A stretch of 64,000 nucleotides of DNA. It comes from Chondrosia reniformis (Eukaryota; Porifera; Demospongiae; Chondrillida; Chondrillidae). The stretch covers positions 2,130,501 to 2,194,500 of the forward strand of contig OX359189.1 in NCBI GenBank assembly GCA_947172415.1, read 5' to 3'. The notes below the pieces were generated by a model. It did no database searches. It was not told the DNA's origin and worked only from the letters and a program-made list of their open reading frames with translations. Of this stretch, positions 12,860 through 57,100 are shown one piece after another. The position numbers and the translations under genes are program-made. How positions within the stretch are numbered: position 1 is the first letter of the stretch; the number at the start of each line of letters is the position of its first letter.

Positions 12860-12870
12860 GTGAGATGTTC

Positions 12871-13022
12871 GAAATATCAATGGCTAGAATCGAAAGATGT
12901 CGGACAAATTCATCGTGAGTTATCTTCGAAGGCCGTCCAGATCGAGATCTATCTTGTTGGCCTCTCTGCTCCTCCCAACGAAAAATCCACTCTTTACTGT
13001 ACACGAACGATGTGTTAATCAA
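12871..13022 (-). mobile_element. Possible DNA-transposase fragment at the copy A breakpoint
   Basis: Similarity to copy D stops near 12870. The adjoining minus-strand open frame (from 13022) encodes KEWIFRWEEQRGQQDRSRSG followed by RPSKITHDEFV. The RSGRPxK motif followed by a helix resembles the DNA-binding N-terminus of Tc1/mariner-like transposases. Only about 50 codons remain and no catalytic motif is visible. The position, exactly at the end of the NLR homology, suggests involvement in the breakpoint. Confidence 0.3.
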
Positions 13023-13155
13023 CGATTTTACTCACACGGTTAAAGATGTACTCGCACCGAGTTGAGATTTACACGTACGAGTAATATACGCTAGTGTACA
13101 TGCGGTTAGTATGGTTAGGTAATTTTAATCATCATTGTATATTATCATTCTATAG

Positions 13156-28876: not shown

Positions 28877-28930
28877 GTAGATTTCCATGCAAAGATTGTG
28901 ATATTAATAAACTGTTTATACGTAAATCAA

Positions 28931-29880: not shown

Positions 29881-29909
29881 TATATACATTTTGTATGTAC
29901 TGGCCGTAG

Positions 29910-31631
29910 GGCTCAGATGCAGAGAGAGCGATCAGAGAAGGCTCTGAAGGACAAAGAAGAAGCTGAGAGGGAGAGACAGAAAATGGAGGCGCTCCTAAAG
30001 AAATACGAAGAGGACAAGTCTAGTGCTCAGGAAAGTCAGTCCTTTCTATGTAACCTAAAGCTACTGTAGGATGCAAAAAGTTCCTGTTTTATTTATGTAC
30101 TACGGTAGAACCCGTTGCTATACCATTTCCGTTCTCAATACGTTTTATTTACCGTGCGACGGAGAGACCATTTTCTCCTATTCTCCGCATAAATTGTGAA
30201 CTTTTTTGCATCCTACTGTACGTACATTGTGTATGGACATCAACACTGTATGTATAGTTTAGTACAGTTGTTGTATATGATATACGTATGTAGGCATTAT
30301 GTACCTACTTGTGGTTTGTTTATCACTATGATTATGCACTTACTGCGTAAGAGATGGGGGATTGACCGTACTATTACATTAGTACAACTGCACTGTCATT
30401 GTCACTGGTTTGTGTGTTGATTACAGAGCTCAAACGCAGAGAAGAAGAAGCTAAAGATCTTGAAGAAAAGATGAGGTTGGCAAAACAGGAAGCTGAGACG
30501 ATTGAGCGAAGGCGCCAAAAGGCTGAAGAAGAGAGGAAGGCAACAGTTTTAAAGGCCCAACAAGAGCAAGCTGAAAAGGAAGCACTGGTAAGGTTCTCCT
30601 CAGTTATTAACTCCATCGACCAATTATTTCTACTACCAACTACTACACTTTACCTGTAACTAGCTATGAAATACGTACATAGGTAATTACATAGAAGTGA
30701 CATAAATTTAAACATATTTCTTGTAAACATTACCTACTTTGCAATATTTATAGCACAGTGTGACAGTTAACTATACTTTGCTGTGTCTCATGTTAACTAG
30801 TTTTGGATCTGCTGTTTGTAGATGAGGAGGGCTGCTGAAATGGAGGAGAAGGCAAGACAAATTGAAGAAGAATCAGCAAGGAAGGCAAGAGAGGCAGAAG
30901 AGCTGCAGAAACGGGTAAATGCATATGTGCTGCATTACACTAAGTCTTAAGACTGATTACTTTAAGAATTATTTGTTTAGCTGGTTGCACTCCTCATGTC
31001 TGTCCATACGTATCTGTAGTTGGACGAAGCTCACAAGAAGCAGATGGAGGATCTGAAAAAGTTACAAGACATCTCCTACATGCCCACCAGCAACTACACA
31101 CCTTACAGTGATGAGGAGAACACTGCTGGGGAGCAATCCCTTTCAATGGAGGGAGTGTCCAATATTGGCTCAGAGCTGGACAGACAGACCATGCAGGACA
31201 AAAATCAAAACATGGCTGACAGATTGAAGGTGAGCACTTGATCAGTTTGGCGCAGAAGTGGATTAAGCCTGTGATGCAACATCATTCACTAAAGATCCTT
31301 CTAGAATGTCAAAATGTACTCTTAGTATAGTGTCCCATATGTGTCTGCAGTTGTTATATTGCTTGTCTAATAACTAAGCTATACGTATGTATGTTAAGTT
31401 AGTATTGTCAAGTATAATAATAAATTACGTATTATGGTGTTCGAGTATTCTCTATCCCCTCACAGGCTCTGACAAAAGACTTACAGTCCATAAGAGTTGA
31501 AGCTAAGGAGACCCAGGCTGACAAGATCCACGCAGAGAATGTGAAGAAGGGAGTAGACAAGTTTAAGACACTCAAGCAGATTCGACAGGGCAACACCAAG
31601 ACTCGTGTTGAGTTGTTTGAAAACATGTAAC
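29910..31631 (+). CDS. ERM (ezrin/radixin/moesin) coiled coil and actin-binding tail, 5' part missing
   Basis: Exons 29910-30034, 30427-30587, 30822-30914, 31020-31229, 31466-31631 (stop TAA). The product is a Glu/Lys/Arg-rich alpha-helical coil ([40 protein letters not shown]), a linker with [11 protein letters not shown], and a C-terminal domain ending [24 protein letters not shown]. That end is the signature of the ERM C-ERMAD, which binds F-actin and masks the FERM domain in the closed state; animal ezrin has [16 protein letters not shown] there. The matching FERM exons lie downstream, not upstream, so this is an orphan tail. The FERM-to-coil junction is absent, and the first exon's phase does not match the preceding CARD/repeat exon. 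Confidence 0.85.
30064..30218. mobile_element. 155 bp MITE in the first intron of the ERM tail
   Basis: Left end CTGTAGGATGCAAAAAGTTC; right end inverted CAGTAGGATGCAAAAAAGTT; flanked by TA on both sides (30062-30063, 30219-30220). Internal sequence is unrelated to the other MITEs in this window. Non-coding. Confidence 0.75.
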
Positions 31632-32486: not shown

Positions 32487-34341
32487 ATGCCTAAATCAGT
32501 GAGTCTATAATTATATACTATAATTATATACTATTTTAAAAATCATTCTGTGAATAATACTACAAAAAATCCATCCCAAAGTAATAGTAAAAGTATTTTC
32601 AAAATATTTAAAATCAGTTTCTGTGTATGCAGGTTAAAGTAAAAGTGGACAGTATGGATACAAAACTGGAGTTCAGTATTCAAACAGACACTAAGGGAAA
32701 GCAACTGTTTGATATGGTAACTGCTGTCCTGAATATCAAGGAGCACCGGTGGTTTGGTCTGCAGTACACAAGAGAAAGGGACAAGTCACATGGTTGGGTC
32801 CGACTAGCAGACAAGGTAAGTAACACTCTGTACTTAGGAATCATTAATGTACTTGATCGGGGCTTATAGTTAAATGTGGAAAGTAATTGTAGTTAGGTGA
32901 CAATGTAAACATCATATACACAGTAATTCAGTCACATGGCAGATCTAGTAATATGTATACTCCAGTGATTATGCACTATAGCCTTTGCATATACAAGCCA
33001 ATTAAGTGTAACTTACGTGTACTCCCTCTACTACAATATATAACATCTTAGTAGTATATGTACGTATATAGACCTACCTACCATTTGATTGGGCAACATT
33101 AGACCTACCTACAATTTGAGTCTATATCAACCCTTTCTTTCAATCTGTTGATGTTGCCCAATCAAATGGTAGATAGGTCTAATTTTGCCCAATCCCACTG
33201 CAATATATATCTGTACACATAGATAAGTAACCTTGATGTAGCAAGAGAAGAGAAAGATGATCCCATGTTTTTCAACTTTAGAATCAAACACTTTCCTGAA
33301 AGCATATCAGAGGAGCTCATACAACTGCCTACACTGGTTTGTGAGGCATATATACAATCAACACTCATGTATACTTTATGTATACTATATATACATACAT
33401 GTCTTATTTCTCATGAATATGTACAGCATCTGTTTTATCTTGAGATGAAAGAGAGCATCCTTGAGGACAAGATGTACTGTCCAGTAGCAGCTGTTATACT
33501 CTTGGCATCACTAGCAGTATGTGTTTCAACATAATAGTAATATACTGTATTAATAAAGTATTTATTTGATTTTTGATTACATCTGTATATAATTAATGTG
33601 TATTACTATATTATCACACAAAATCTAAATTATAACAGTTTCAGGTTAAATATGGTGACTATAAGCCAGACATTCACAAGACTGAGTTTTTCCAACAAGA
33701 GAGACTACTTCCAGAAAGGTGCCTACCAACATAGTGCTGTATATACTGTATATAGGTGTAAGAATGAGACATATAATATCTGTACTTAGTTGCAGTGTAC
33801 ATATACGTATATGTAGAGAGATGATATGTACAGAATATTTATATCAATTACATTATCAAAGCATGTAATGAGTGGAATATTTTGTTGTACGTTACTTATT
33901 ATTTAGGATAACCAATCAATATCTTCTTACAAAAGAAGAATGGACAACTCGAATAATTGCTCTTTACGCTCAACAGAAGTTCCAAATGAGGTACATGTAC
34001 ATATACTAATTTCATTCACTGATATACACTCATATGCCTCTATGGCTAGTCAATTAATAGGGACGTAATGCTCATCTCCTCATCCATATTCCTGTAGGGA
34101 GGAGGCAATGATGAAGTACCTCAAGATAGTTGAGGGATTGGACATGTACGGTGTCCAATACTACAGCATAAAGAATAAGAAGAATTCTGATGTTTGGCTG
34201 GGAGTTGATCCTGTTGGATTTAAAGTTTATGAGAAAGAAGACAAGCTAACAGTGAAGATGTGCTTTCCTTGGACAGAGAGTAAAAACATTGCCACAACTA
34301 ACAAGAAGTTCATCATCAAACACAGATATCCAGGAACTCCA
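32487..34341 (+). CDS. ERM FERM-domain half, tail missing
   Basis: Exons: 32487-32498 (MPKS), 32633-32815 (F1 ubiquitin-like lobe: VKVDSMDTKLEFSIQTDTKG, HRWFGLQYT), 33223-33336 (ARGEEK-like region then FFNFRIKHFPESISEELIQL), 33427-33516, 33645-33718, 33907-33990 (F2 lobe: MYCPVAAVILLASLA, EFFQQERLLPER, LLTKEEWTTRI) and 34098-34341 (F3 lobe: KYLKIVEGLDMYGVQYYSIK, VWLGVDPVGFKVYEKEDKL, CFPWTESKNI). Order and spacing match ezrin/moesin, whose FERM domain binds PIP2 and membrane-protein tails. MPKS corresponds to MPKP of ezrin, which supports the start. After the F3 exon the remaining FERM and coil exons are absent and NLR LRR sequence begins at about 34652. The gene is therefore truncated or part of a chimera. 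Confidence 0.85.
33067..33195. repeat. Inverted repeat in the FERM intron
   Basis: ACCTACCATTTGATTGGGCA at about 33073 is the inverse of TGCCCAATCAAATGGTAGAT at about 33156, giving a hairpin of roughly 35 bp stem around 50 bp. The same motif forms a 31 bp direct tandem array at 49480-49603 in the paralogous intron. Confidence 0.6.
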
Positions 34342-34651
34342 GTAAGTGAACAGAAGCCATCCCTCATGATCAGTATGCATATTATGTATAGTTACAGTAC
34401 ATACGTATAATGCATGCATAGTTATTATGTATAGTTATGTATAGTTACAGTATATATACAGCATGTATAGCGTATACGTACATGAGGTTTTGATTCACAC
34501 AACTAAAACATTTTCTGTACGTATTTACCATTATTGTTGCATTCATCATAAGATCAGTGGATATACTGATACAAAGACCTTCGTGGTCGAAGTGTTTAAT
34601 AACTTATATAACATTACTGTAGCTGATGTTCATATGAAATCGTACTATGAC

Positions 34652-37600
34652 TGTTGGACAACTCTTGTCCTAATGAACTGATCAGATCGTGCTTTATTGG
34701 TGTGTTATGTAACAGAACTGTAACAGATATAAGTCTTGAGGCCTCAAGTGAGTTTTGTGAATTTTTATGTTAATTCCATCAGTGAATTTATCATAGCAAC
34801 CTAATAGCTGTAAGTAATATTTTGTACAGTATACTATAATTACATATACTCATCAATGTATTCTTTACTTCATTGATAGGTGTTTCATTGGACTCTGAAG
34901 ACTTTCCTTTTCCTGAACATTGTGTTTATGTTCATTGCACACTCAAACTAGACCTCCCTCCACAGACATGGTGTAAAGTGTTGTGTAGTTTGGCTAAAGA
35001 TGAATACTTGAAGGAGCTAACACTATCACTCAAGTGTAACAAAGTACGTATGTACATCAATCAATCCTACATTTAATTATTTGATGATTAGATATTTAAA
35101 TGGCTAAGTCTAAAGGGATGAACACACTTACCCTGAATGTAATCAGTTTATATTTGGGGACATCATATTGTGTATATTATACTTACATGCATATGTACAT
35201 GCATACTTGGTACGTAGTTGTAAGATTGCACTGATATTTCTGTGTCAATTCTGTTATTGATGGTCTTAGTGAAGTGCCAAGTAGGTATCAGATATACATA
35301 TAGTACTCAAAGTTATATACGTTCAGCTACCACCATTCGTAGGTCACAGGTAGTATTGCACAGGTAAGCTAGGTGCAACATGAGAATGTGATAAAGGTAC
35401 ACAAACAGTGATGGTAAACCTAATTCACTAATTTTGTTCCATAAATATATGTACTTACGTAACTCACTGTGTATTGTTGATTGTATACGTCAGAGAACAT
35501 ACATATGCATGAACATAATCTAAGGAAGCTACTGGTGGAGTTTATTACTCAACATCATTATGTATTTAGACATCATCTTGTGATGAATGCAAATGGGACT
35601 CAGTGGAAAGGTCCTTGATAGAGAACTCATCACTGAAGACAGTGAAATTGGAAATGGACTCCTCTTGTCCCAAAGAACTGGCTGAATCATGCTTGATTGG
35701 TGTATTGCATAACCAGACTATGACAGATGTCAACATTTATGCCTGGGGTGAGTACTACTTATTTGTACCCTAAATCAATATACTGTATACATACGTCCAT
35801 TTCACTTACACAACACAATTTAGTCAATAAAGGAAAACTAATTGTGACAGTTCATTTTTGTCCATTACATTGTGCAATTTCCACACAGTGCAAGTTACTA
35901 GTGGATGTTCTACGTATATAGACACATTAATATGCTTAAGACAGCCACAATCAAGTGCATGCATACATACAGTATGTCATACAGTAAAAGATTCAGCACC
36001 TCCACACACAATATTATACAATTGGAGTTTTAAATTATATAACTTTTACATGCAGTATGTCCACTGCCTTTGGTTCCCCTTTAAGTGTTACAATCACTTT
36101 ACAGACGTTTAGTGACAGGAGGATTAGTTCATAATGACTGTAACCACTAACAGCTATGGGATGTAGACATTGGTATCTTTAAGTTGAAGTATCTACAAGT
36201 GTCCATATTTGGGTGTCCCTGACCTACTGTAGGTATGTACTTATCATGTTTATTATGAGATGGTTTTAAGTTGTATGTTACAATTTGCATGAATAAACTG
36301 GAGAATGAGTAAACCCATTTACAGTATCAACTGATGGTCCCCACTTTTGAGTGCTAAAACCAAAGTCTAAATTGCAACAATACACAAGAATTAGTGGTTA
36401 AAGATGCTGAATATATTGTTATTGTGTGCACAGTACTTACATATATGCTGACAACAGACACAGTGTTCTGACAATTTATATACCATTGCATGAAACCTCT
36501 TAACTAAAGTAAGAAACTTTCCCAGACTGCCATTTTTTTTAATTATGTAATGCATGCTCCCACTACCCAAACTTTCTGTGATGTTAATTAACAATGACCC
36601 CTATTGTAGTGTAATTATGTACTTATTTTACTACTATGCCATACATTCTATCAGAAAGAAGACTTGTGAGTTATATGGTAGCCATTTTGTGGTCCCTTGA
36701 ATGTCCATTTTAGATATATTTGACCTTAAGAGGTTCTAGCTAGTAAGTTAATGTGTTAATGTCAACCTTTGTGGTATTTGTTGTTATCACAGTGTAATGT
36801 ACTCTTTATTATTGTGTGATTTGTGTAAGATGTCTTCTTGTTAGTATACATAGTTGAGCAGTTATTGAATAAAATTTTCCATGAAATAATGATGTGCTGT
36901 ATAGTGAATAGTAATCTTCTTTGCTTTTACTGTTTTATTATATCCTCTTACATTAGACTGTTCAATTGGTAATGAAGATCTAATTCTGCCTGAGCAATGT
37001 GAGATGACATGTGTCAAGTTCTCACTTGATGTAAAACTCACTGTTCAGCAGTGGAGTGAAGTGTTGTGTTATCTTGGAAAGGCTAAACATTTAGAGAATC
37101 TTACACTCGAGTTGTGGTGTTCCTCTGAGGTGAATCAAGTAGTGTGCTTATGTAGTGTGTAATATATGATGAGATGATATGCTTTCCTTAGCAATTAATT
37201 ATTATTTCAGGATGTTTAGATCCGTGTACCTTCATCAGCTGTACTTGATCAGGTACTGTTGTATACTGAATGTGTAGTATGTATTTGTCTACTACGTACG
37301 TATTTGTTAAGGAAAACTGACTGACTAGTGATTGACATAGTGTCACCATCTGATTCCTTGTGAAGTTGTGTACATCATTTTAATAAGAAAGAAATTTAAT
37401 TATAATAATACGTATAAATCCTTTTGCCTCTCTCCTTCTCTTGGGAATATCTCTATATATTTAGAATGATAGACTTGTAATGTAACCAGTATATATATGT
37501 ATGTTAAGTTTGTTATGTTTCTTTGTTCTTTATGACTTACAGTACAAGAGATTGGTATGTAGTGAGTGTCAGTACTGATATGTATACTGTGTCTTATTCT

Positions 37601-38831
37601 CCCTCTGTAGTCAAGTGACATTGGTAAATATTGTAGTAAAGTTAAGCAAGTGTGGAAAATGTTCAAGTGTAAAAAGGTGGACATGAGATTGTGTAATAAT
37701 GTGAGTTATGATTGATCTTAAACATTTGTGTTATATAGTTATATGTACAGTTGTGATTAAAACATTTAGCCATGTTACACAAATGTGCACACAAGTAGAA
37801 TAGTCATATGTGAGTACAGTATGTATACTAACACCAGTATGACACTGTACCGGTGCTCAACAGAGTAGTTTCCAATTGATATATATCATCTAATGTCTAC
37901 TGTATACTTGCTGTGTTGCTCTGGAACCTTCTTTAAACGTTTCCTTACCTCAACATGTGACAAGTGAGAGGTCGTTTCCTTACCTCAATCAACCTCAATA
38001 GCTCAAGAATTAATTACTGTTGTTGGACTTAGTGGAAGTAACTTGTATAGTATATGCTACTTATTGTACACACACGTAGGATCTGAATGAATATAAAGTT
38101 ATTGGAGTCATTAGCCTAAGGGTTATTAGAAACTTGTAAATGTAATGTACAAATAATGAAAGAAAATGAGAACGTGATAATTGGCTATTGAATTAGTTTA
38201 GTAATGGTATTGTACACCAGTAGTGATAGTGTGTGTATAATCCACTTCTCACATGTCACATGTTGTTAGGTAGTGTATTATGTCAATATGTTTAGTGACT
38301 AAGGTAACTCTTCCTTTCTAGACACTAACTGACATTGTCTGTGCTGTGTTGGAAGGTTTGTCAGAGAACACTGATGAGATTGAATTTACCTTGCACTGCA
38401 GTTGGTATATTAACATGCGTAACACAGTCAAGTCTAAGCTAGCACCCAACATGTCAGAGATGTTCACATGGGAGGATAAGAAATGTACCTTAAAACCTCT
38501 TCACACTAGAAACTCATTAGGTGAGTAGTTGTAACTATACTTTCTCTGAATACACAATGTTGGTAGATACTGTACAAGTATACACTGTATATTGTAAAGA
38601 GGAATGTCCTTGTGAGAATCACTTGGAGGGTGTGTATGTATGTGGGTGTGTCCAAATATGGAAGTTATGTCCAATATCCTGTGTTTCACTAGAGCTCATT
38701 TAGAATGTACTTGGAGATCAGTAGTTTATAAAGTAATATTTATTGTATTTCAGTAGCTGCTTCATCAGGAGAGTCAAACCTTCCTTCTGTACCCACTGGA
38801 GACAGTCCAAATATGGAAGAGAGTGCTTCAG
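34652..38831 (+). CDS. NLR-type LRR and tail exons, copy C (no NACHT)
   Basis: Exons 34652-34747 (3' part of an alpha LRR exon), 34880-35043, 35580-35747, 36957-37129, 37611-37700, 38322-38520 and 38754-38831. These match copy A exons from its alpha exon 4563-4737 onward, with the introns, so the block is a segmental copy. The 5' breakpoint lies inside the first LRR exon, directly after FERM-gene sequence. The fusion frame across that breakpoint meets a stop, so a usable protein would have to start downstream or splice differently. The last exon ends in phase 1 (GCTTCA G|GTGAGT), and the next phase-1 acceptor in the window is at 39624, the first exon of the ROC-COR gene. Paralogy with A continues into the intron until about 39052. 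Confidence 0.7.
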
Positions 38832-39624
38832 GTGAGTCATCTAATGATGTTTGATCTAATTAGTACGGATTTACTGTAACACTAGCTAGTCAAACATGTT
38901 TTATAAGTTGAAGTGAGTACTTGTGGAATGTTCATATTGTTCACTCTCTATTAGTAATAACTACATACAAGATAAACCCTTTGTATATTCATGTACTGGA
39001 TTAACTGCATGGATATCCAAGTTCTTAATAAGGCCTTTCTTTCTCTGAGTATATTCATATGTGCATGTAATAACCCAAGTATGTACAAAATAAATTTAAC
39101 CTGATAGTTACAGATGTAGTATTGGTGACCATATTTTCTTTGCTTTATATGTACGTATTTGTGAGAAATACCATAGTTAGGGCAATTTTGTGTGATTGTT
39201 TTAATATTTTGTGGTCTGGACCAACCACATATTAACTTGAAACTCATTGGTTGAGAAGACATTTCTTGATTCACACAAGTGCTTGATTGCATGAGTTGTT
39301 ATTAAAGTCAAAAGTGAGCCTTTTGGGTCCTGTAGCCTGTGTTTACCTAAAGATACTGCAGTAAAGACATTTTTTACTCAGTATTTTGAGTTACACAATT
39401 ACATTATCTGTATTCTATCATAATTGCATTAATATATTCACTGTTGGAAAAACTTTTGTGGGATATTTTTGTGGTTTATAAGCCAACCACAAAAATATTT
39501 TAGCAACGAACATTCCCAAACTATAGTATATGCTATGTACGTATCTGTTGGCTCTACGTATGTTCTCACAAATGATGGACCCCATGCTCAGTAATTTAAT
39601 AATGTATTTCACATATTTTTAAAG

Positions 39625-42600
39625 GGAATAGTTTGGAGCCTGTATTTGATGGTTTTGATATGGATGAAGACGATCCTGAAATGTTAGGTAAGGCATATTA
39701 GAGCTAGAATATACACTATAAAAGTGTTTTTTTTTTTCAATTTTCTTTTATCCTCATTCAATTATACATATTATTTTTTAGAACCATGGATAGATGTGTA
39801 CAATCAAGTTCTGAAGATTGGGCACAAAATTACACAGCACATTATACATTGCATCACTTTGGGATCAGCTGGAGTAGGAAAGACATGGCTAAAGAATCTT
39901 CTCACTGGTCACCCCAACTCTACTACTATACCTAGTACAGATTGCATAGTTCCTCCAGATATATGTCTTCCAAAGGAAACATATGTTGAAGATGATACAC
40001 ATGGTTCCTGGAAGCTACTAACAGCAGAAGAAGAGTTAAAGGCAATCATTTCTGAATTTGATGTTGGCACAAGTTATTTTGATCAAAGGCAATCAGATTC
40101 TCCAGCATCTAATATTTCTATTGATAAGAATGAGGAGGAATCACCTGTTAGCTCTTTAACAGATGAATTGGATGGCAGAACACCAGTACAGTTGCAGCTT
40201 CCACTGCAGACTCATGAAACGTCACATGAAAAGTCACATGATGAAGTCACTGAAGCTGACAGCCAACAATTACAAACAGAAGAAGGCCTAAAAGATGAAG
40301 TAGAACAGAAACAGTCTAAGTCGTCTAATGATTTGGATGGAAGGGTTCTTGAGGACTCTGCTTTTTCAACATCTTTTTTAGATAAAATTGCATCTCTTAG
40401 AAGTGAAATTAAGTCTATTCCTCCTATCAAACTGGATGGTAAAGCTGTCATTTATTTTACTGATACAGGAGGACAACAGTCCTTTCATGAAATTCACCCA
40501 TCTCTCCTTACTGCACCAGGATCAGTTTACTTGATTGTCATGAAACTGCATGATTTAGATCCTCAGGATGAGGTAAAGACTAAGCATAAGTTGGATTTGG
40601 TAGAACGTACATTACAAAATATTTATCTTGCTAATAAGCCAAATTTTAAGAGTGAATATGGTGTCATCCTTGTTGGTACTCATAAAGATGAAGTAGATAA
40701 TGTGAAGGATCGTTTAGAATTTGGCAACAGACTTATTAAAGAAATGATTGCAGGAAAGGCATATGAGAAACTTTTACCAGACTCGATTATTGCAATTGAC
40801 AGCTCACAAGCTGGTACTCCTATTAACAAAATGAAGAATAATGATGGAGTGATTACTTTGCTTAAAGAAGGGGCAAGCGGCTTTCAGCTTCATAAAGATA
40901 TACCACTTTGTTGGTGGTGCTTTCATTTGTATATCCGCCATTTATTTGAATATTCTCCTGAAGAAGAACAAGAAAGACAGTGGGCTTATGAGTATAATCA
41001 CTTGCAGGAATTAGCTAAAGAAGTGGGTATTAGCTCTGATGCATCAAAAGATGCAGATAAATCAAAAAGCGAGTTTTACTCAATGGTAAAATTATTTAAT
41101 AGTCTTGGGTTTTGGGTTTATTTTGAGCCAAAGGGTAGTTCATTAGATGTGACTACCTCTCAGCCTAAGAAGTGGATTATTACTAGTCCTAATATGTTGT
41201 ATAAGTATGTTTCCAAACTGGTGAACATTCAAGAGACAGAGATTTCTCAATTCGATACTTTGCAACATTCCTTTAAAAAAACTGGATTTTTCAATCAATC
41301 TATGCTTGAAGAAATTTCAGAGGACAAACTGCTGAATTCTATTGAGGTACAGCAGTGGTTTTTGGATCTATTGATCCATTTAAATATTGCAGCAATGTGC
41401 TGGGATTATGAAATTTGCACTGAGGGCCCATCAAAAGAGCTAAAAGATCCATATTATATCATTCCTGCAGCTTTTCCAGAAGACAAAAGTATTACAATTC
41501 CAGAGCATAAAAGTGTAGCCAGTCTATATGTTAAGCTGGATGATATAGGTTGTATACCCACTGGCATATATTGTAATCTTATTGCTTATCTAGTATCAAC
41601 TCTAAAGGAATATGATAGCCTATTTGTGCATATCAGTGGGTACTCTCGTACTCTTAAACCTACTTCCAGGCAAAGAGCCATTGCTATATTTTCTGGTCAA
41701 TATGGCAAAGTTTACCTGACTGAGACCACAGATGCAATATGCGTAGATCTTGTAGCAGATTCATCTTACTTTCACAAAGAGAGCAACAGTCTTGAACTGC
41801 TTTTCTCCAAATGCTCCAAGTGGAGAAATAATATAAGCAATTTGATTAAAACAATGTATCCAAAACAAGGGATTCTCTGGCAGGTCAAATGTGAGCAGCA
41901 TGACCAGTTGGCCAATGTATGCCTTGGATCAGATGATTCAATAATGATTGCATGTGATAAAGAGCACATTGCTTCAGCAGATCAAGTAGCTTGGTTCACT
42001 GATCAAGTTCCTTCAAATGCTAAGGTATTTAACTTTATTTTTGATCTGTACACCTACATAAGTATATACGTATATATATATATACATAGACAAAAATAAG
42101 TTATGATTGGAATTATTATGCCAAACAATTACAAGCCAAGTGCATGACTGATGACTTATTTTGGCTGGAGTTCAATTACAACCAGTGATTGCCTCTTAGT
42201 TATTGATGATTTTCCATCTTGGATGATTGGCATAATATAATTATTCATGTTTAGTTTTAACATGCATGGGTTTTGTGCAATTACGTAACTCACTTTCAAA
42301 CACATTATTTACTATGGAAAAGTCTTCTTAATTTTAAAGGGTTTTTACATTAATGAGACATAACCTATCATATGATATTGCACAATCATCGCAAAGGAAT
42401 ATGCAGCTAGTCCCCAGACCCAACCTTCCGAGGCATCAGCATCATCTTGCGGAAGTTGGGGATGGGTACAAAACTTTAGTTAGCGAAAGTTATTTATAAT
42501 GTTCAGGACACTTGAGCGTTCTCAATTGTTAAAATTAAGAATATATATATTAGAGCCCAATGATGCAGTCAAGTAGTTTGAGTGTGGGGGTGGCAGCCCA

Positions 42601-45600
42601 CGAGTTTTTAAACTTGAAATATTAGTTTACTTCAATATGTCTTCATTATCATCAGTAATTTAAGCATAACAGCCCTGGCATGACTAGCTATGTAGCATAA
42701 TCCCTATACTCAACAGACAGTACTTGATTGTGATGGCTTATTATAAAGAGTATTGGAACAAGGTATTCATGTGATAAGGCTAACCGTACAGAAGTGCACA
42801 TGGCATACTAAATTTTAAGTGATTGACTTAACCATACATTATTTCTATGTTTATGATATCTGAAATGAGGATGCCATTTTAATGCGCCTGGAGAGGGTTA
42901 GGTGTTTTGAATAAACTGTAAACGTCAGCCTGAAGAGTGATGGGAATGAGACTGCCTTCAAAATTGACATGCTTTATGCAGAGCATGTTCAAAATCCTAA
43001 TTTCAGAGAAATTAATGACAATTTAAGCATTTTTGCAGGATCAGTTTGCATGTTTGTGCTAATTTATTTGAAAAAAGAATTTCTAATTGTTTTTTAACCA
43101 GTTTGTTTACATTGTAATTCATTGAAAATGTTTTAATGAAAGAAATTACAAAGTCTGAAATATTACTTCATTGTTGATTTATGATGTGATTATTGATTAT
43201 ATTGAATTGGGCAACCATATTCTGGGGAGCTATCCCTATTTAGAGAGTACTACCGTTCTCTGATAGAACTTATGGACATCTCGTGTGTGCAACCTACTAA
43301 TTAGCTGCTTTTTACAATACGAATTTGGTTAAGCTTTTGGTGAAGTAACAAGTAATGATAACATGTACAGTACGTAGGTACAATTAAGTACAAATAAGGT
43401 GGCAGTTTTATCCTGCTATACAATGTATATGCAATACTTGTATTATAGAAATCCCACTATGGTTAAAGGTTTCTTGTGTGTTACAGAATCTAATAATCAT
43501 CTTGCTGTTCTCTACTTGCAGAGTTATGATAAATCAGAAATCACTGCAATCATGGAGGAAGGTAATGTAGAATTAAGCTCCAATTGTACCAGTCCTATAT
43601 CTATATGCAAGTTGTGAGTGCTTTCTCTAATCAGTAGCAACTCTATTGAACCTGTAGTATTTTGTGTGAATGTAGACATTAATTACACTAATTAGCCTTA
43701 AGATTGATGATATACTGTTAAAAGCTTGTTAATTTTTAGCACCAAGAAAAATATGTAATTATGTAAGTCAAAGTTTGACAGTAATGCACTAAGTATTTTA
43801 ATAATTTGTAGTTCATGAAATGCAGTTGAAAGATCTCTGTTGGATTCCTTTTGGAATTAATTCCTTTCAAGTTGAAACAAAAATTGGTGGCATATTTAAT
43901 CTAGCACCACATATAGCCGAGAACAGCCCTGATTTTGTTTGGTGGTTGAAGGTATATCCTAATAATTCAGACAAGAGTAATACCCAGGTACTTGTGCATT
44001 ATGGATGCATAATCACTGGACCATTTGTTTTGCCTGATGGTTACAAGCTGGTGAGTCCAGTGTTGTACCTGGACATGAAGACAGATTTGTTTTTTACGCC
44101 ACTTGACCTGCATATGCCTCACTGGAGCAGTGACCCTACAAGTGTTAGATACATTACTGCTCCTCATGTACCTAACCCTGAGGGGAAGTATGTTTTTAAT
44201 TTGAGAGATAATGTTTCGACAACAGCAAATTTGAAGATTGTTGGAAACATGTGTTTATTTGCCAGTGTAATAGAATTGTCTAGCCCTGAAAATTATTTTA
44301 TCACTTGGTGGAAAAACGAATCAGTGAAGGATTTGCAGTACAGGGCTGTTGCTACTTATGACTCTGCAGACTGGATTTCAGTAAGCATGGAACTTTGTGC
44401 TGGGGAATATTTATGATTACTTTATTTTGTTGCTTTCTCATTGCATGATAAGCTGTTGGATAAAGAATGGAAGAATCTTAAATGGATTAGGGATACTAAT
44501 AATCAACCAAGGAAGTTTCAGTTCCTATCCGAAGAAATATATGCCAGTCTTCAACCAGAGGACTGTAATGCAAAGATTTCTAATATGGTATGTATGTACA
44601 CTTATATACTGCAACTGTATGTACTGTATGTGTCTATGTAAATCCTGTGTGTGCATATACTTATGATTTCATCTGGATAGGAGACAATACAGAAACAGGA
44701 TGTACAATACAACGGGGATGATGTAAAAAAAAGGGTCAAACAAACACTTTACCCTCCTTTTATATTTATCCAAAGTGAGAAGTTCTCTGAAAGAAAAGTT
44801 AATGGAGTCTGCAATATTTATTATAATAGCCATAATGGTGAACAAAAAATACTTTCTAAATGTAACATTCCTACATACTATGGTTAGTTAATTTTTATAG
44901 ATATGCAAAGCCTGTGATTGACACTACCTATTAAGTATGTACTTTACATTAAACTAGAAAGCATTACACACACTGAAATATATGGCAAGTATATGAATAT
45001 GTTCCTTATTATATGTATAGGTACGTATGTATATGTGTATACATATGTATTGTATCAGTTCTTTTCTGTTTCTGCATAATTCCATTTCACTTTGATTAAT
45101 ACGTATATATATACTATGATAATTTCAATTATCATTTTTCAATTATAGCTACCATGAGAGAGAGATCATTGCAAGCAAAGGAAGATGAGAAAATTCCATT
45201 AAAAAGAGGTAATAACAATTTTTATTACATTTTACTACATACATATACAGTACATGGCTAAGCACTTTCAGTTGAGTGTATCGTACATACTTGCATACTG
45301 ATTATTATGGTTTTTCTTAATATGAACTGTACAGATTCCTCCAGTACAACTTCAGTTACTAAGGAATCTAGGATCAGAGGTAACTGTTCCTAGTCAAGAT
45401 TTAATTTTATTGTTCAAGTTTTAGTGTTTTAAATTGTGGTTAAAAATATTTATACATATGTACGTACGTATATATAATACTAAATGATGACATTTACGTA
45501 TGAAGCTTTTTGCCTCTGTTATGCACAGCTTATCTGTGCATTACCAATTGATACATATGTAGTCCATAACAAATGAGGTGTATATGTACATTTTGTCTTT

Positions 45601-48450
45601 AAAGTTATGCCAAAGGTTAAAAAAGTTGTCCATGTAAATAGTCCACAGAGAGAAGTGCTAAACCTAGCCTTGTTTGCATAGAAGAAGAGTTAGTACATAC
45701 GTATGTTGTGTCACCGTATCAAGTATTTTGAGTTAAAAAAACTCAGTTTTCGTGATGTACCTAAACATAGAAGTGATGTGTATGATTATGTTTCAGTATG
45801 CCACTTCTGCAATGTTAGCCTTACCATATGATCACCGTCTTGATTCTATACTTTTCTGGATGTGTCAGTCACTGTTGTAGGCACTTCCATCTCTACTTCA
45901 GGGCTGTAGCCACTGGTCCAGTTGGTCTGGTTTCAACCAGACCACTTTTTAGCTACTCAGCAATCTTTTTTTGGACAGCAGTAGCTAGAAGGCACTGAGT
46001 ACATATGAGACTCAGAGCGAATCAGGCACTCACAGTGCACTATTAACCCTGACAGACACTTACACGGTTAGGCGCGGCTATTGTTGCCACGGACCATCGG
46101 TACCGCACGTTGACTGACTCACTTGAAACACAACGGTAGCCATTGCTGCTACGTCATATGTCGTCATAAACCCTACTTCTTATCTAACCTGACCACTTCA
46201 AAATTAATGGCTGCGGCCCTGTACTTCTAGTTTCATTTTTATGGAATGTTTATATAGGTATACATATATAGATTTATATTGTAGCCTGCACTGTACATAA
46301 GTTATATAAATACCTAAGAGTGAAACAATATAGGGACACTTTCAGTGCAGACTAATTTTCCTATGTACTTATATTAAGGGGCAAGCCTATATTAATTTTT
46401 GGATGTGGATGCAATTACTGTAGTAAGCTTTCTCTGTACCAACCAGCTATTTTCCAGAAACCATGTTCATCCTGTGTAGGCCATGTGCGTATGTATGATT
46501 TTACAAGCATGTATGAGAGTGTATTACTGAATTTCATTCTATGTAGAACCACCTAAGAAAAGAGAGCAACACTCTTCCTTTCACTCTCCTCCTCAATCTA
46601 CACCTAAGAAAAGAAAGCAACAGTCTTCCTTTCACTCTCCTCCTCAATCTACACCTGATCAGAAAAGAAAGCAACAGTCTTCCTTTCACTCTCCTCCTCA
46701 ATCTGCACCTGATCAGGAAAGGAAAGATAGTAAAAGAGGTAAATAATACACATAAAATATGGTAGTACTCTCTCTAGTAGAAATAACATGAAAACAGTAA
46801 TTTGAGTTAAAAGCCTGGGTGGGGCTACCCTCCCCAACTGGGCGGGGCTACCTTCCCCAACTGGGCGGGGCTACCTTCCCCAACTGGGTGGGGCTACCTT
46901 TCCCAACTCAAATTTCAATCCTCAAAATTTTATAGAGGTAAAAAAGGAAGCAAGCTTGCCATTTGCAAATAAGTACATGTACATGTACATACATGTATGT
47001 TTATAATAATTATGAACCTATTTACCTTTTTATATAACCTCCAAATAAGGGCATCCTATACATAAAGAGCACTGCCACTTGTCCCAAGGTGTCCTTATGG
47101 AGGTTTCCCTGTAATAATTGTACTTACTTATACAGTAAATAATTTTGAAGCTTGAATCATAGTCCCTCATTGTTGACTATGAAGAACTTTATTAGTATTA
47201 GTCTAGAAGATTCTTGATAGAACTTGTTTTGTCTGCTTATGTAGGTAAATCAAAGAAAATCAGCAACCAGAGTAAATCAGCTTCTCTCAGTTCTGTGTCA
47301 GATAAAGAAGAAAGTAACTCAGGTATGTAAATTGTCAGAATCAAGTTAGTGTGTTATGTCATTCATAAATCAACAGTAGTTTGATTTTATATACTCACAA
47401 GCTTGATGGGATTGCTATAATGTGACATGAGATGATGTGTGTTGTGTGTTTCATTTGATTTTCTGCTATAGAAACATAATAAATCACTAGACACAGATAG
47501 AGCCTCATTTAATGTGCTTATATTGCCTGTGACTCCTGCTTCTGTCCCATTTTCCTCTTCTTCATTATCTATGTCACCTTTTTGAACTTGAGGCAGTCTT
47601 GAACTCTGTATATACCATTATAGAGGCTTTGAATTCGTGTTTGTCAGTCTTCAGAGCAATCAGGCCTAGGTGTGCCCCTACTTGTAGCGTTGGTCCATTC
47701 ACCAGAATGTTGTGCTGCCTTGCTATATATAACAGGCAGTCTAAGACTCTTATGGACAGAGAATATGGAAGGACCAGGACCAAGCAAGTATCCTTCTTCA
47801 AAATCTTGTAAATATTATTTCATTGACAGTGTCCATACTGAAGGCAGCAGTTGTAGTAAAATTGTTATCATTATGCTGTTTATGATTACGCAATGTCTCG
47901 ACATGGCAATATCGTAAATATTATTAAGCGTACCATATGACATGTTCAATGTCTTGAATATAATTAAATGTACCCTACTAATGTACATACCTACGTATTC
48001 CAGCATTATGTCTTATCACTATTTGTGCCAAGATAAAAGTATCAAAACAAGATAGTGATCATGTGGAAAGACTGATCTACAGAAGTAGCCCTTACGTACA
48101 CATCACTAGCTTAGCTGAAGTAGGGATGATTATACCAAATCATATAAATAATGTGTATGGTTAAGCTTAAATTTCAGTATGTCACTTCTGAATGGTCAAA
48201 CAAAAACGGTTTTGCTTTGATACTTTTCCAAATGGAATATTTTTACTAAACTTTTACATATAATAAACTACAGTATTGCATATAAAATATGAAGTGTTAC
48301 TTTATCCATATACGTAGTTTAAAGAGCCTTCATGTTTAATTAAGCAGCAATTAAACTTTTATCCATCTATATGTAATAGGTTCTAAGAAACAGGAATTAG
48401 TAGACATGGACAAAAAATCAAAAGCCAAATCCTCTTTGAAACCTAAATGA
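39625..48450 (+). CDS. ROC-COR GTPase with ZU5-like domain and basic tail (ROCO family)
   Basis: Exons 39625-39687, 39782-42024, 43522-43561, 43812-44380, 44453-44587, 44681-44882, 45149-45208, 45335-45379, 46547-46738, 47245-47322, 48380-48450 (stop TGA). The large exon carries the ROC GTPase and COR region; 43812-44380 looks like ZU5; the last five exons are Ser/Lys-rich. ROCO proteins are GTP-regulated signalling proteins, usually with LRRs before ROC and a kinase or Death domain after; here no kinase is seen and ZU5 is the partner. The first exon (SLEPVFDGFDMDEDDPEML) enters in phase 1, so the protein starts further upstream; the only candidate 5' exons in the window are the LRR and tail exons at 34652-38831. 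That would give LRR-ROC-COR-ZU5. No frame break was noticed. Confidence 0.75.
39782..42024 (+). CDS. ROC-COR exon
   Basis: A single 2.2 kb exon. GTPase motifs: G1 GSAGVGKT (39862-39885), G3 DTGGQQ (from about 40461), G4 as THKDE (near 40679) and G5-like AIDSSQ. Between G1 and G3 there is a long Ser/Glu/Gln-rich insert of about 150 residues that would loop out of the domain. After ROC come LYIRHLFEYS, VKLFNSLGFWVYFE and other stretches consistent with a COR dimerisation region. The exon starts EPWIDVYNQVLKIG right after the acceptor at 39781; the run of Phe encoded just upstream is intron, not a signal peptide. Confidence 0.8.
42025..43521. other. Long intron of the ROCO gene
   Basis: Contains a short GC-rich hairpin (CCCAACCTTCCG at about 42420 pairing with CGGAAGTTGGGG at about 42450) and a degraded foldback-family copy at 42745-42895. 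Otherwise AT-rich with nothing recognisable. Confidence 0.5.
42745..42895. mobile_element. Diverged foldback-family fragment
   Basis: GTGATAAGGCTAACCGTACA, GAAGTG...GGCATACT and TTAACCATACAT...TTTCTATGTTTATG align with the arm of the element at 26520-26889. Arms are strongly eroded. Confidence 0.4.
43812..44380 (+). CDS. ZU5-like domain exon of the ROCO gene
   Basis: About 190 residues: GGIFNLAPHIAENSPDFVWW, GPFVLPDGYKLVSPVLYLDM and FFTPLDLHMPHWSSDP. The SPVLxLxM...FxxPLxLxMPH pattern is the conserved core of ZU5 domains (ankyrin, UNC5, PIDD, MALT-like proteins). In PIDD and UNC5 the ZU5 lies beside a Death domain and autoprocesses or autoinhibits it; no HFS-type cleavage motif is obvious here and no Death domain follows. 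Family assignment is by pattern only. Confidence 0.6.
45754..46250. mobile_element. Foldback-family half-copy, interrupted by a second element
   Basis: 45754-45898 (CTAAACATAGAAGTGATGTG, CCACTTCTGCAATGTTAGCC, ATGATCACCGTCTTG) and 46227-46250 (CTAGTTTCATTTTTATGGAA) together match one arm of the 26520-26889 element. Between them sits the 323 bp element at 45899-46221. Only one arm is present. Confidence 0.65.
45899..46221. mobile_element. 323 bp element nested in the foldback copy
   Basis: Ends CAGGGCTGTAGCCACTGGTC and, inverted from the right, CAGGGCCGCAGCCATTAATT, about 14 of the first 16 bases matching. Direct repeat TACTT at 45894-45898 and 46222-46226. The CAGGG ends suggest a hAT-type MITE, but hAT target duplications are normally 8 bp, so the superfamily is open. 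More GC-rich than the surrounding intron. Confidence 0.7.
46547..46738 (+). CDS. ROCO tail exon with a triplicated basic peptide
   Basis: Three near-identical units of about 51-57 bp encode KKREQHSSFHSPPQSTP, KKRKQQSSFHSPPQSTPDQ and KRKQQSSFHSPPQSAPDQ. Each contains a KKRK-type cluster that could serve as a nuclear signal and SP sites typical for proline-directed kinases (inference). The exon is phase 1 at both ends. Confidence 0.7.
46817..46908. repeat. 23 bp GC-rich minisatellite, four units
   Basis: Unit GGGCGGGGCTACCTTCCCCA + ACT, four copies, in the intron just after the triplicated-peptide exon. Each unit has a G-run and a C-run (GGGGCTACCTTCCCC) and could form a small hairpin. It is a striking GC island in very AT-rich sequence. 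Confidence 0.85.
48030..48235. mobile_element. Diverged foldback-family copy in the last ROCO intron
   Basis: TATCAAAACAAGATAGTGAT, GAAGTAGGGATG, AATGTGTATGGTTAAG and TTTCAGTATGTCACTTCTG match the 26520-26889 family in an inverted arrangement with eroded arms. Confidence 0.55.
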
Positions 48451-51111: not shown

Positions 51112-54100
51112 ATGAACAAGGAATCGAAAGTCAGAGGTAATTAACGAATTGAAGTGTGTTATAATGTTCTGTATTAGTGAAAATATCTCTCCCTTTCCGT
51201 AGACTATCCAAAATTTGAATCTAAACTGAGAACATATTTAAAAGATTTAGGCAACTGGAAAGAGGTGCTGGTCCATCTTGGAATACCACTTAAGAAATGT
51301 GATGCAGCACTCCGTAATAATATTGGTGATTCTAATGAAGCCTTTTTCAAATGTCTTCTCCACTGGGTTGATTTGAATGTGAAGGATACTAAAGGTACAT
51401 GGAGTGAGCTATTTGATGCTCTGAGAAAAGGAGGAGAAACAGGAGCAGCTGTAGACTTGGAAGAGGACATCTTTAGTTCAGAAAGTGAGAGTGGTTAAGT
51501 AGCATACGTATGTCTGATCTTTTGAAGAATTGAATTAGCAATGGAAGATATTATGCCAAGTGATTTAAGTATTTTATTCACTTCCTTGTCACAGCCTTTG
51601 CACAGGATTTAGTTCAATTATCTCCCTCACTTCGTATATCAATATACTTTGTATATTAATATATATTCCTTTTTAGTTAATGATAGTGAAAGTATTTTGC
51701 CACAAGAATGTCTGTTGAGTTGACCTCTAGTTTTAGTCACTGTGTCTTCCATTCTTGACTGTGTTCCATCCTCTCTTCAGTGTAAGAGTTGTGTTTCTGT
51801 TTTATTAGGTGAACAAGAAAGCAAGTCTGTTCATCATTATCTTGATCACACTGGAGTTATTCATCAATCTGCTGGTCCATCAGGGACACACCCTTCTTCA
51901 GTAGATGGTCCATCAGGGACACACCCTCCTTCAGCAGGTGGTCCATCAGGGACACACCCTCCTTTAATATATGGTCTATCAGGGACACACCCTCCTTTAA
52001 TATATGGTCTATCATGGACACACCCTCCTTCAGCAGATGCTCCATCAGGGACACACCCTCCTTTAATATATGGTCTATCAGAGACACACCCTCCTTCAGT
52101 AGCTGGTCCATCAGGGACACGCCGTCCTTCAGTAGGTGGTCCATCAGGGACACACCCTCCTTCAGTAGGTGGTCCATCAGGGACACACCCTCCTTCAGTA
52201 GGTGGTCCATCAGGGACACACCCTCCTTCAGTAGCTGATCCATCAGGGACACACCCTCCTTCAGTAGGTGGTCCATCAGGGACACACCCTCCTTCAGTAG
52301 GTGGTCCATCAGGGACACACCCTCCTTCAGTAGGTGGTCCATCAGGGACACACCCTCCTTCAGTAGCTGATCCATCAGGGACACACCCTCCTTCAGTAGG
52401 TGGTCCATCAGGGACACACCCTCCTTCAGTAGGTGGTCCATCAGGGACACACCCTCCTTCAGTAGGTGGTCCATCAGGGACACACCCACCTTCAGTAGGT
52501 GGTCCATCAGGGACACACCCTCCTTCAGTAGGTGGTCCTTCAGGGACACACCCTCCTTCAGTAGGTGGTCCTTCAGGGACCCACCCTCCATCAGCAGGTG
52601 GTCCATCAGGGACACACCCTCTCTCAGTAGGTGGTCCATCAGGGACACACCCTCCTTCAGTAGGTGGCTCATCCTGTAGACAATCTCCTGCAGGTTAGTT
52701 AACAATGATTGTGTTTGTGTTTCTAGAAGTGGATAATGAAGGAAAATACTCTTCACTTGTCCACAGGTACCAAATCCAAGAGGAAACAGAAAGATAAGAA
52801 GACCTCACGGACCCACCAACCAAGTAAGAACAATCTTTGTACATTTAGTATTTCCATTATTACTCAAAGTCCTAACAAGACAGGTTCAGTAGTATAACTT
52901 GTACTGTATCTAATAGAATCCAAAAGAAAGAGAGTACAGCCTCACTCACCCTCTCCTGAGGAAGATGGTAGCAGCAGTGGATCCAACAGTAGTGGATCCA
53001 ACAGTAGTGGATCCAACAGTAGTGATAATGGACCAGTGGAAGAAGACAATAGTCAAGTAGATGGTAAGTATAGTGTATTGTGTAGTTGTACTTATGAACT
53101 GTGTTAATCTCACTCCTTCAACAGGTTCTAGTTCCAAACAGACAAAGAAAAGTCACTACTCGTCCAAGTCAGCTAAAAGACGTGACAGAATGAAGATTGA
53201 CACTGTTCCCCAATCTAGTGAGAATGATACTCTGTTGTTGCATACTGCAATGTGTTCCTTGTGTGGTGGTGGGCAATAAAAGGAAGTTGACACTTTGGGC
53301 TACTGTAGTAATATGCATAGTGTGTGTATGTTTGTTAATTATCTAGTATACATAGTTATAATATTACGTCTTCGTTATCTAGTTATAATATTTGTGTGGT
53401 GGTGGGCAATAAAAGGAAGTTGACACTTTGGGCTACTGTAGTAATATGCATAGTGTGTGTATGTTTGTTAATTATCTAGTATACATAGTTATAATATTAC
53501 GTCTTCGTTATCTAGTTATAATATTTGTTATGTTTTTATTTGTTTATTATAAAGCTGATTTATTATTAAATAGCAGTTACTGTAGCTTATAATGAACTCA
53601 ATACATTGTGAATACATCACCTGTTATGTTTGTGTGTAATAGAACTTAAAGTCCACAAATAATATTTGGCAGATATACGTAGTATATAGTGACATAGAAG
53701 TGTGTGTATAATCTAGTATATAATATTACGTCTTCGTTATCTAGTTACAATATTTGTTATGTGTTTATTTGTTACAGAGCACAGAAGAAGGAAGTCTCAA
53801 CCTTCTTTACTCTCTCCTTCTGCATCATCTGAGGAAGACGGTGGCAGTGGTGGATATAACAATAGTGATGATGAGAAGATCAGTCAACAAGATGGAGTAG
53901 ATGTTCTTGTTTCATCACTTCCTGCATCATCTCAACCCAGACTGGTTGCTCAATCTACTCACACTCCTCATTCACTAAGGTCACTCCCTCAGAAGAAGAA
54001 GAAGAAGAAGGAGAGAGAGTCTACTGATCACTCAACTCATCCTATGAAGTCACAAGTGAGTAGAGATTCACAAAACACGAGCAATTCTATTCCAAATGTT

Positions 54101-57100
54101 GTTAGTGTTTCATCAATCAACTGAAATGTACATAAATGTAAGATTACAAGTGACAGAAACCGTATTGTTGGGGAACTGTAATCATATGAACTGCCAATGG
54201 AGGTGAAACAGCTGTCTATGATGGGCAATTAACTCCCTTACATACTTACATCTACTTACATAAAAAGTATATACATACACACTGTATTACAATAATACTA
54301 CATTTCATGTAGGATAATCCATACTACCCTCTCAGTGATCTCCTTCACACACACTACATGAATCGGATGAAAGTGGTTCCCACTGATGCAGATATCATGT
54401 TTATTGAGTTGGCTGTGGTTGGCAGAGAGAAGAGACTTCGCAAGAAACAAGATCTCTGTGACTTTCTACAAGCAGCTATTGAAGGAATAGACATTATTCA
54501 TGAAAGGTCTAAAACAGTCCAATACAAGAAAATGTTAAGCTACGATGAGCAAAATTCTGGGAAACGAATTATAATCAGTGGAGCTCCTGGTTGTGGAAAG
54601 ACAACCCTTTCTAGAAAGATCTGTAAAGACCTTTGTTCTCAGGAGCTGAAAAATGACTACAAACTAGTCATCCTGGCACACCTTCGTGAGTTAAGTCTGT
54701 ATGTGAAAGAAGAAGAGCTCCAGCTTCACCATCTCCTAAAGAAGTATGCTTCTAATAGGGTGAACATTCAGCTCATTAGCGGGACAATAGAGGAGACCAA
54801 TGGTAAAGGAGTGATCCTTGTTCTAGATGGCTATGATGAGATATCAGATGATATGAAGAAGAGCCAATTCATGCAAAACATTCTCAAAAGCTCTTCCCTG
54901 TATCTCAGTGAGTGTGACATAGTCATCACCTCCCGTCCTGTTACCATGCCAGAGCTCCAGTCAGACTTGGAGGGACCTGGTGGCCATGTTGAAATACTGG
55001 GTTTTAAGACAAAGCAGATCCATTTATACATCAAGAGCTACTTTAGCCAAAATGCACAACTTGCAGCTAAATTGATAGAGAAGCTGAAAACTCTACCTTC
55101 AGTTTGTGGAATGTGTCGCATTCCAGTGGTCCTCCAAATAGTCTGCCGAGTGCAGGAGTATTTGGGAGAAGCCAGTCTCCCTCATACAATGAGCGGAATC
55201 TATAACATGTATATTTGTAGAGAACTGGTTCAGTTTCTTAAAGTATTTGGCACTTCTAGCCAACTGACTGACATTAAATTAGACAACATTTCCAATGATG
55301 TATTCCCATTTTTTGCCGAACTTTGTGAAGTATCTTTTAAATTTTGCAAATATCAAAAACTAGTTCTTTCACAAACCGAGTTATCAGATGCCTTAAGAGG
55401 TTCTATCTTGAAATGCAGGGGGAGCATGTATGGACTGCTCTGTTCAGAGACAGTTGATGAATTTTTCTCAGTTTTTCCTGAACACTTGTACATGTTTACT
55501 CACAAAACAGTACAAGAGGCACTGGCAGCAGTTTATGTTGCTAAACAGACCCCAGAGGAACAGTGGGAGATCTGGAAAGAGCATTTTGGAAGGAAGGAGA
55601 TGGTGGAGGTGTGGAAATTCTATTGCGGATTTACTAAACTACTCCATTTTGACCTCTTAAAGCTAATCAAAAGCAAGAGCTACTCAAGATGGGAAAAGAA
55701 AACTCTACCTCAACTGCTGATGATCTCCCTTTATGAGGCAGAAAATGAAGATATAGCTAAGATAATCTTCACAGATGACATGTTCAAGGATATAACATAT
55801 TCATCTTCTTCAGCCTACGAGACAGCCATTTTGGGTTACTTCCTCAAGTTTAGCAGTAACACTGAAAGCCTTTGCTTCAGAGCCAAGAGATCTCCAATTC
55901 AAGTGGAGCTTGCCCTTCCAGCAATGCTGGCCAATCAGAATCTAAAGACACTGAAACTTCAGTCACTGGGAAAGTCAGGTTTGTTTAACGCTATACGTCG
56001 CTGCTTGATTTTTCAAAATTCTTCCATCTAAGATATGCCATTGATACTTAACAAATGGATGATATACGTACGTATAGTGTAGGTACGTACGTATATACAA
56101 ACTGTTACAGTAGTGATATATATAGGGAAATTACTTACTGGTTTAATGGTTTAGAGAGTTAATTACCAATTTATTTGAACCAGAAAATTACAGAAACAGA
56201 AAGAAATCCACAAAACCAACTTTCTTCCACTGGTATATAATATTATATATATTGGGCATATTCGTATACAATATTATATACTTGATTATGCACAGGAATA
56301 GTTGCAATAACATTTCTGTCTCTTCCTACTTTCATATGTACATTTGTCAAATCACTACATCAGTCCCCTCACAGCCTGTTTAACATTATATTTTCTCCTT
56401 TAGATTATACGTACATGTGAATCTAGTCATTATATCTTTAGAATTGAAGGATGTTGTTCTTGAATATTTTTAGTGGCCCGTTGAATGATATTTTCATGTC
56501 ATAAGAGATGCATGGCGTTTTTAGGAAAATATTATATTATTGTAAAGTGTAAATTGGGATAGCTGTATGTCTATAAATTGGGCATGATCTTTATATTAAT
56601 AATAGTTTTCATTAATTATAGATCTTGGTATGTTTGAAAAGTGCTTGGAATCCTGTGAGTCCACTGGAATAGAAAGCCTTCAATTGAAGGATGTTACTAC
56701 AGAGTATATTTTGGCCGTGTTAAAGGTTTCAGAAAATTTTCCTTCATTAACCAATTTATCATGCAGTGAAATGAAATCACAAGTTCAAAACAAGGAGAAA
56801 GTACAAGCAATGGTATGTCAGAATGATGTATTAGTAGTTACTGTATGGATCTTTACAGAAATTCCAAATGAAATGAGTTTGATTTTCCTTTTCATTATCA
56901 TGATAATATGCATATGTACATATATGTTAGGGGTATTGTACATACGTACATTGAATTTTTAATTTTGATACGTATGTTTAGTGTAAGTCATTTGGATCTC
57001 ACTTGGAAGATAGCACTTCATTGAAGACCTTTGAATTGGAGTTTAGCTATCCTTCTGGTCTCCTCAGACCTTGCTTAATTGGAGTATTGAATAGCCTATC

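Follow-up and report, generated by a model that had tools for sequence, protein, structure and literature searches.

As a rule, NACHT and ROC-COR domains are assigned to distinct families of oligomerization switches driven by nucleotides. LRRK2 and MFHAS1 are ROCO proteins in which the ROC-COR tandem lies behind a repeat domain, and PIDD and UNC5 are ZU5-Death proteins. In the parts of the source available here, COR is listed among the domains of the bona fide NLRs of the sponge Dysidea avara (Figure 2 legend), which share NACHT followed by repeats, clustering of similar copies and, putatively, an N-terminal CARD or Death domain with the genes described below, whereas a NACHT-ROC-COR protein is not discussed in the text (PMC12909245). 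According to the accessible parts of further reports, brown-algal LRR-ROCOs shuffle their repeat exons (PMC11378527), the anthozoan gene NG1 encodes an LRR-Roc-COR-TIR protein (PMC5094078), and Aplysia has TIR proteins with ROC-COR (PMC9334734). In NG1 and the Aplysia proteins, immune-type domains have been shuffled onto ROC-COR as in the present case, with TIR there and NACHT here. NACHT-ZU5 proteins of early animals unite NACHT and ZU5 in one protein, but ROC-COR is not mentioned for them in the parts of these sources covered (PMC12909245, PMC8260672).

In this study, we closely analyzed a window, i.e., one whole stretch of 64,000 nucleotides (C1:2130501-2194500), from the genome of Chondrosia reniformis, for which public RNA-seq data, among them run ERR10177766, and Ensembl and BRAKER3 gene annotations exist (PMC12181767). 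Coordinates below 1 lie upstream of the window, and the genome position equals 2130500 plus the coordinate; genome searches covered 117,379,552 bases in 15 contigs. The locus resembles ROCO proteins in having a ROC-COR tandem behind a repeat domain. Unlike in ROCO proteins, the part before ROC is derived from an NLR, with a NACHT NTPase in a fuller copy upstream of the window (U) and in a locus on contig C7, and no kinase, which LRRK-type ROCOs have after COR, was matched in the eight frames scanned. The end of U, where a ZU5-like part is followed by a Death-like part, recalls PIDD and UNC5, but in U these parts would belong to one chain with NACHT and ROC-COR. The open literature searched yielded no discussion of a NACHT-ROC-COR protein, an absence of little weight.

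The NLR array and its truncated copy

The window contains a local array of NLR copies, of which copies A and D served as references (NACHT exons at 1076 to 2770 and 54313 to 56031, respectively, both on the plus strand). Pfam NACHT was matched in all three window copies tested (A, B, and D; E values of 4e-23 to 7e-20), and Pfam Death was matched in copy B with 24.6 bits (cutoff, 22.6). Regular, alpha/beta-looking repeat exons follow NACHT; in the truncated copy C, the repeat exons alternate between type A (phase 0 to 1) and type B (phase 1 to 0). No Pfam LRR model matched these repeats, and no solved structure in the PDB was recognized for them, the sole row of one search being an LRR protein by name at an E value of 5, so that "LRR" is kept as a label. 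Toward its 3' end, copy A has a linker exon, N+1 (12764 to 12859, ends approximate; plus strand; phase 1 to 1), that is conserved in U, common to copies A, D, and W, and represented by 10 genome matches; it is absent from the truncated copy C. In copies W and D and in a copy on contig C9, N+1 is followed by a proline-rich end exon.

Just 3' of N+1 lies a glycine/proline-rich sequence in copy A (12870-16228) and in a further copy on C1, L044 (C1:2245848); the two are 98% identical over 2.1 kb and unlike the proline-rich end of D and W. Repeat arrays with a spacing of 33 bases, open in several frames, were seen near NLR 5' ends (27974-28903 and 51857-52693), and an array with a spacing of 31 bases (64894-68084 on C1, downstream of the window) follows the proline-rich end of copy D, with matching stretches also behind copy W and the C9 copy.

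Copy C (34650 to 39055, plus strand) was delimited by blastn comparison with the other copies (A, B, D, U, E, and W), the longest aligned stretches showing about 86 to 97% identity to all of these except B, for which the value is 76%. A preliminary description of this DNA had presented copy C as the LRR and tail exons of an NLR without NACHT; the NLR 3' part and the lack of a NACHT exon were borne out, and the LRR identity was not. The genome NACHT list, with at least the entries found among the 101 of 139 candidates scored, has no entry between copies B and D. The 5' breakpoint does lie inside a repeat exon, a type-A exon cut at 34650, of which 34654 to 34743 (plus strand; tblastn residues 29 to 58 of 59) is left and which the exon chain of copy C can bypass. 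A type-B exon orphaned by this break (34880 to 35043, plus strand; phase 1 to 0; tblastn match at 34882-35043, first base set from the reading frame) is also found in U.

A splice-site and phase scan of the plus strand placed a type-A exon at 35570 to 35747 (phase 0 to 1), a type-B exon at 36957 to 37129 (phase 1 to 0), and exon K at 37611 to 37700 (phase 0 to 0); exon P (38322 to 38520, plus strand; phase 0 to 1) was set by the scan together with genome matches. All 17 genome matches of exon P are without an inner stop (weakest E value, 5.5e-4), and its length is 199, 187, and 190 bp in C, D, and E, the three comparable copies. An extra small exon after the type-B exon (about 37212-37252) was dropped, as its counterparts in the copies contain stops or do not share a frame. 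The acidic linker exon N (38754 to 38831, plus strand), with 11 copies in the genome, is flanked by AG and GT and runs from phase 1 to 1, so the last NLR exon of copy C ends in phase 1 as had been described. Equally, the ROCO side starts in phase 1: the short acidic exon R0 (39625 to 39687, plus strand) has phase 1 at both ends, and phase 1 is also the entry phase of the ROC-COR exon (39782 to 42024, plus strand). R0 as an ordinary NLR exon was ruled out, being found genome-wide in two copies only, C and U. The seven exons from 35570 to 42024 join into 1,008 codons without a stop.

The domain assignments of the ROCO body were examined with Pfam and structure profiles. The ROC-COR exon of the window, whose paralog in U is 94% identical and whose 3' end comes from a home-made gene finder, matches Pfam Roc weakly (E value of 0.012; 16.3 bits, below the cutoff of 27). 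Among 13 aligned family members, Roc was matched weakly in all (best E value, 7.8e-5), and columns G27, G32-K-T34, D227-T-G-G230, and T299-H-x-D302, which we take to be Roc hallmarks, are invariant in all 13. COR-A was matched in 2 of the 13 members, also weakly (best E value, 0.0015), and the ROC-COR profile gave weak matches only to solved structures, the best being LRRK2 at an E value of 0.059. The ZU5-like exon (43812 to 44380, plus strand, in an open frame of 43805-44416) has tentative boundaries, and the gene finder split its frame in two. Pfam ZU5 was matched in three of nine family members (best E value, 2.1e-5) and not in the window exon, and no ZU5 structure appeared among the 10 weak rows for the ZU5-like profile. 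In U, the Death-like exon (-7382 to -7104) is 57% identical to the NLR Death exon; neither this exon alone nor the CARD-like exon of U, labeled by eye, gave a Pfam match, and NCBIfam returned nothing useful.

A fuller copy upstream of the window

A genome search with the ROC-COR exon of the window revealed its paralog at C1:2117369-2119627. This locus, U, lies 53 kb upstream of copy C, outside the window, and has a NACHT match at C1:2098223. What had been described as a ROCO gene without its own 5' exons in the window is therefore corrected to a duplicate of an outside locus whose upstream NLR has a NACHT. Of the proposed LRR-ROC-COR order, the joining of an NLR tail to ROC-COR in compatible phases stands and is also present in U, but the order there is NACHT-repeats-ROC-COR and not the classic LRRK order. 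A transposase-like open frame, recognized by eye (-29679 to -28612; C1:2100821-2101888, minus strand), lies within U, after the repeat exon that ends at -30199 and before the one that starts at -26507.

In a self-alignment of a 124-kb region, the NLR homology between C and U stops at 39055 and -15461, respectively, and the ROCO homology begins at 39049 and -13875. Since the homology of U runs on through N+1 (C1:2,116,430-2,116,525), about 1.6 kb of U, including this exon, was lost from C at the junction at 39049 to 39055 (unstranded). At a second deletion junction (45481 to 45483, unstranded), about 370 bp of U with the Death-like exon is missing, and copy C is also without everything 5' of 34650, NACHT included. 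These losses relative to U indicate that the NLR-then-ROCO order predates the damage in C. As judged from the alignment, copy C is a duplicate of U minus NACHT, linker exon N+1, and the Death-like exon. The reverse, with C as the original and U derived, was ruled out, as C lacks not only the Death-like exon that U has but also NACHT and N+1, which U has in common with other NLR copies.

The identity of about 90 to 96% between C and U over long stretches would also fit two copies created by the assembly, either from unmerged haplotypes or by a mis-join. We regard this as very improbable, since C and U differ in deletions and flanks, both lie on one scaffold with the NACHT-bearing copies A and B between them, and a contig N50 of 4.71 Mb is given in the accessible part of the assembly publication (PMC12181767).

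The reading frames of the ROC-COR and ZU5-like exons are kept between C and U. All four indels in the ROC exon are multiples of 3, compared with 3 of 16 elsewhere in the aligned stretch, and the ZU5-like exon has a dN of 0.018 versus a dS of 0.063 over 189 codons. These open frames, the indel pattern, and the ZU5-like rates argue against copy C being a decaying pseudogene in which the join is without function, whatever U does. Such decay is in turn suggested by the three losses relative to U and by ROC-COR, whose dN about equals dS (0.026 and 0.025 over 739 codons), so that purifying selection is not shown; we consider the question of decay in C evenly balanced.

Just before copy C, an ERM-type gene is cut off, of which FERM exons remain (Pfam FERM_N and FERM_C; 32633 to 34341, plus strand; last exon ending in phase 0). 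Since this phase agrees with the phase 0 start of the exon at 35570, the truncated gene could be spliced to it, creating a new FERM-repeats-ROC-COR-ZU5 chimera in copy C only. A search of the 124-kb region gave no end of the FERM domain, which fits this reading, and the gene finder combined the FERM exons, 35570, and ROC-COR in one gene; however, its model of C leaves out exons B, K, P, N, and R0 and is thus unreliable. Considering also that the FERM exon at 33223-33336 has no splice pair above the thresholds and that C misses three pieces, including the Death-like exon, we judge it to be improbable. The ERM pieces themselves appear permuted, with a coiled coil and the ERM C terminus (29899-31627) upstream of the FERM exons (32633-34344), and FERM fragments were also seen 3' of both ROCO copies (49661 and 50107 for C; -2611 and -2130 for U).

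One gene or two at the fuller copy

In U, 20 GT-AG exons from NACHT (-32529) to ROC-COR (-10903) join into 2,212 codons with no stop and are followed by the ZU5-like and Death-like exons. The 20 exons were picked by hand, guided by sister copies, each with AG before and GT after it; the exon ending at -26347 is below the splice thresholds and was placed by its reading frame. Skipping R0, which begins about 0.7 kb after N+1, would leave the frame of U intact, since the end of N+1 and the start of ROC-COR are both in phase 1. Motif and donor at the end of N+1 are nearly the same as those of N, so that a further exon is expected. No ATG precedes the P-loop in the ROC-COR exon, which thus needs an upstream exon, either R0 or the NLR. 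A whole-genome search for the proline-rich end exon of W, D, and the C9 copy gave no match in U. We therefore favor, with modest confidence, the reading of U as one receptor gene that arose by an NLR/ROCO join and of C as its younger, damaged duplicate.

Alternatively, C and U might represent a duplicated pair of neighboring genes, with the NLR ending at or shortly after N+1, ROC-COR-ZU5(-Death) starting at the ATG of R0, and the phase match due to chance. The in-frame ATG of R0 (39660 in C and -13267 in U) has a G at both -3 and +4. If translation in U continued past the N+1 donor, it would reach a stop about 14 codons later, a possible end for the NLR, and the three NLR types (A, U, and D/W) lose homology at one point just after N+1, which is also expected if the NLR gene ended at this position. 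By chance alone, the phases would agree in one of three cases, and in five control stretches, candidate 1-to-1 exons with the score of R0 had a density of 0 to 1.1 per kb. Two genes would, however, leave N+1 with a donor like that of N, and they fit poorly with two observations from elsewhere in the genome, namely, ankyrin-type relatives in which the ROC exon seems to be internal and a NACHT and ROC-COR in one frame on C7. We consider the gene pair possible, if somewhat doubtful.

The home-made gene finder, trained on 42 kb of long frames of this genome, split exons, missed most repeat exons, and was inconsistent. In U, it started the ROCO gene separately at the R0 ATG, as a gene pair would require, and terminated the NLR model in a long, unrelated intronic frame. 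Its output is taken here only to lower certainty.

NACHT and ROC-COR elsewhere in the genome

A second combination of both domains was found on contig C7, where locus L059 (C7:392500-400499) contains a single open frame of 1,321 codons (1522-5487) with NACHT followed by ROC and COR. Pfam matched NACHT with an E value of 2.7e-20, Roc with 6.3e-6 (26.9 bits versus the cutoff of 27), and COR-A with 0.0065, the latter two both below their cutoffs. Its NACHT shares 46 to 48% identity with the NACHT domains of A, D, U, and E, and its ROC, which belongs to a different clade, is 23% identical to that of the window. An upstream frame of the same locus (641-1300) may be a death-fold exon. Inspection by eye for a NACHT within 30 kb upstream of a ROCO on the same strand identified, among the matches listed, C1 and C7 only.

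In a ROC tree of 13 rows, a C7 clade was separated from a clade of C1, C4, and C3 with 100/100 support; the C3 row is a long branch, 6 of the 10 inner branches are open, and L018, L019, and L020 were left out. With the C1 loci and the single C7 frame in different ROC clades, the NACHT/ROC-COR combination exists in this genome, apparently via two separate joins.

The N termini of ROCO genes were surveyed at 13 loci, of which L018 and L020 were not counted and L009 and L010 are C and U themselves. In seven relatives on C4 and C13, the frame in front of the ROC exon is, as judged by eye, of ankyrin type and ends in phase 1 (L019 is frame-shifted there). Pfam Ank was matched in two of three upstream frames scanned; the third (L011), which is glutamine/proline-rich and not ankyrin, gave no match. 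In L022 on C3, the frame before ROC is Death-like, by eye only. The ROC body thus looks like a phase-1 module placed after differing N termini, and its close relatives would have ankyrin repeats where U has the NLR part.

Under the favored reading, a tandem NLR array would have gained, in copy U, the body of a ROC-COR-ZU5-Death gene behind its last phase-1 linker exon. U is most likely one receptor, translated from a single predicted transcript and composed of a CARD-like part, NACHT, alpha/beta-looking repeats, an acidic linker, ROC-COR, and ZU5-like and Death-like parts; copy C is probably a relic or a shortened variant. The repeats may sense or bind a ligand or keep the protein shut, NACHT and ROC-COR would provide two nucleotide-controlled dimerization or oligomerization switches in one chain, and the ZU5-like and Death-like parts, together with the CARD-like end, might recruit partners and pass the signal on. 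That two nucleotide switches per chain were reached at least twice, by a phase-1 intron join to an ankyrin-type ROC-COR-ZU5-Death gene on C1 and by direct exon fusion on C7, is a proposal that we place just on the probable side. If true, a protein in which NACHT and ROC-COR follow each other would offer a natural system for testing whether one can gate the other, and it would suggest that NLR sensors of an animal lacking adaptive immunity use ROCO bodies as interchangeable output modules.
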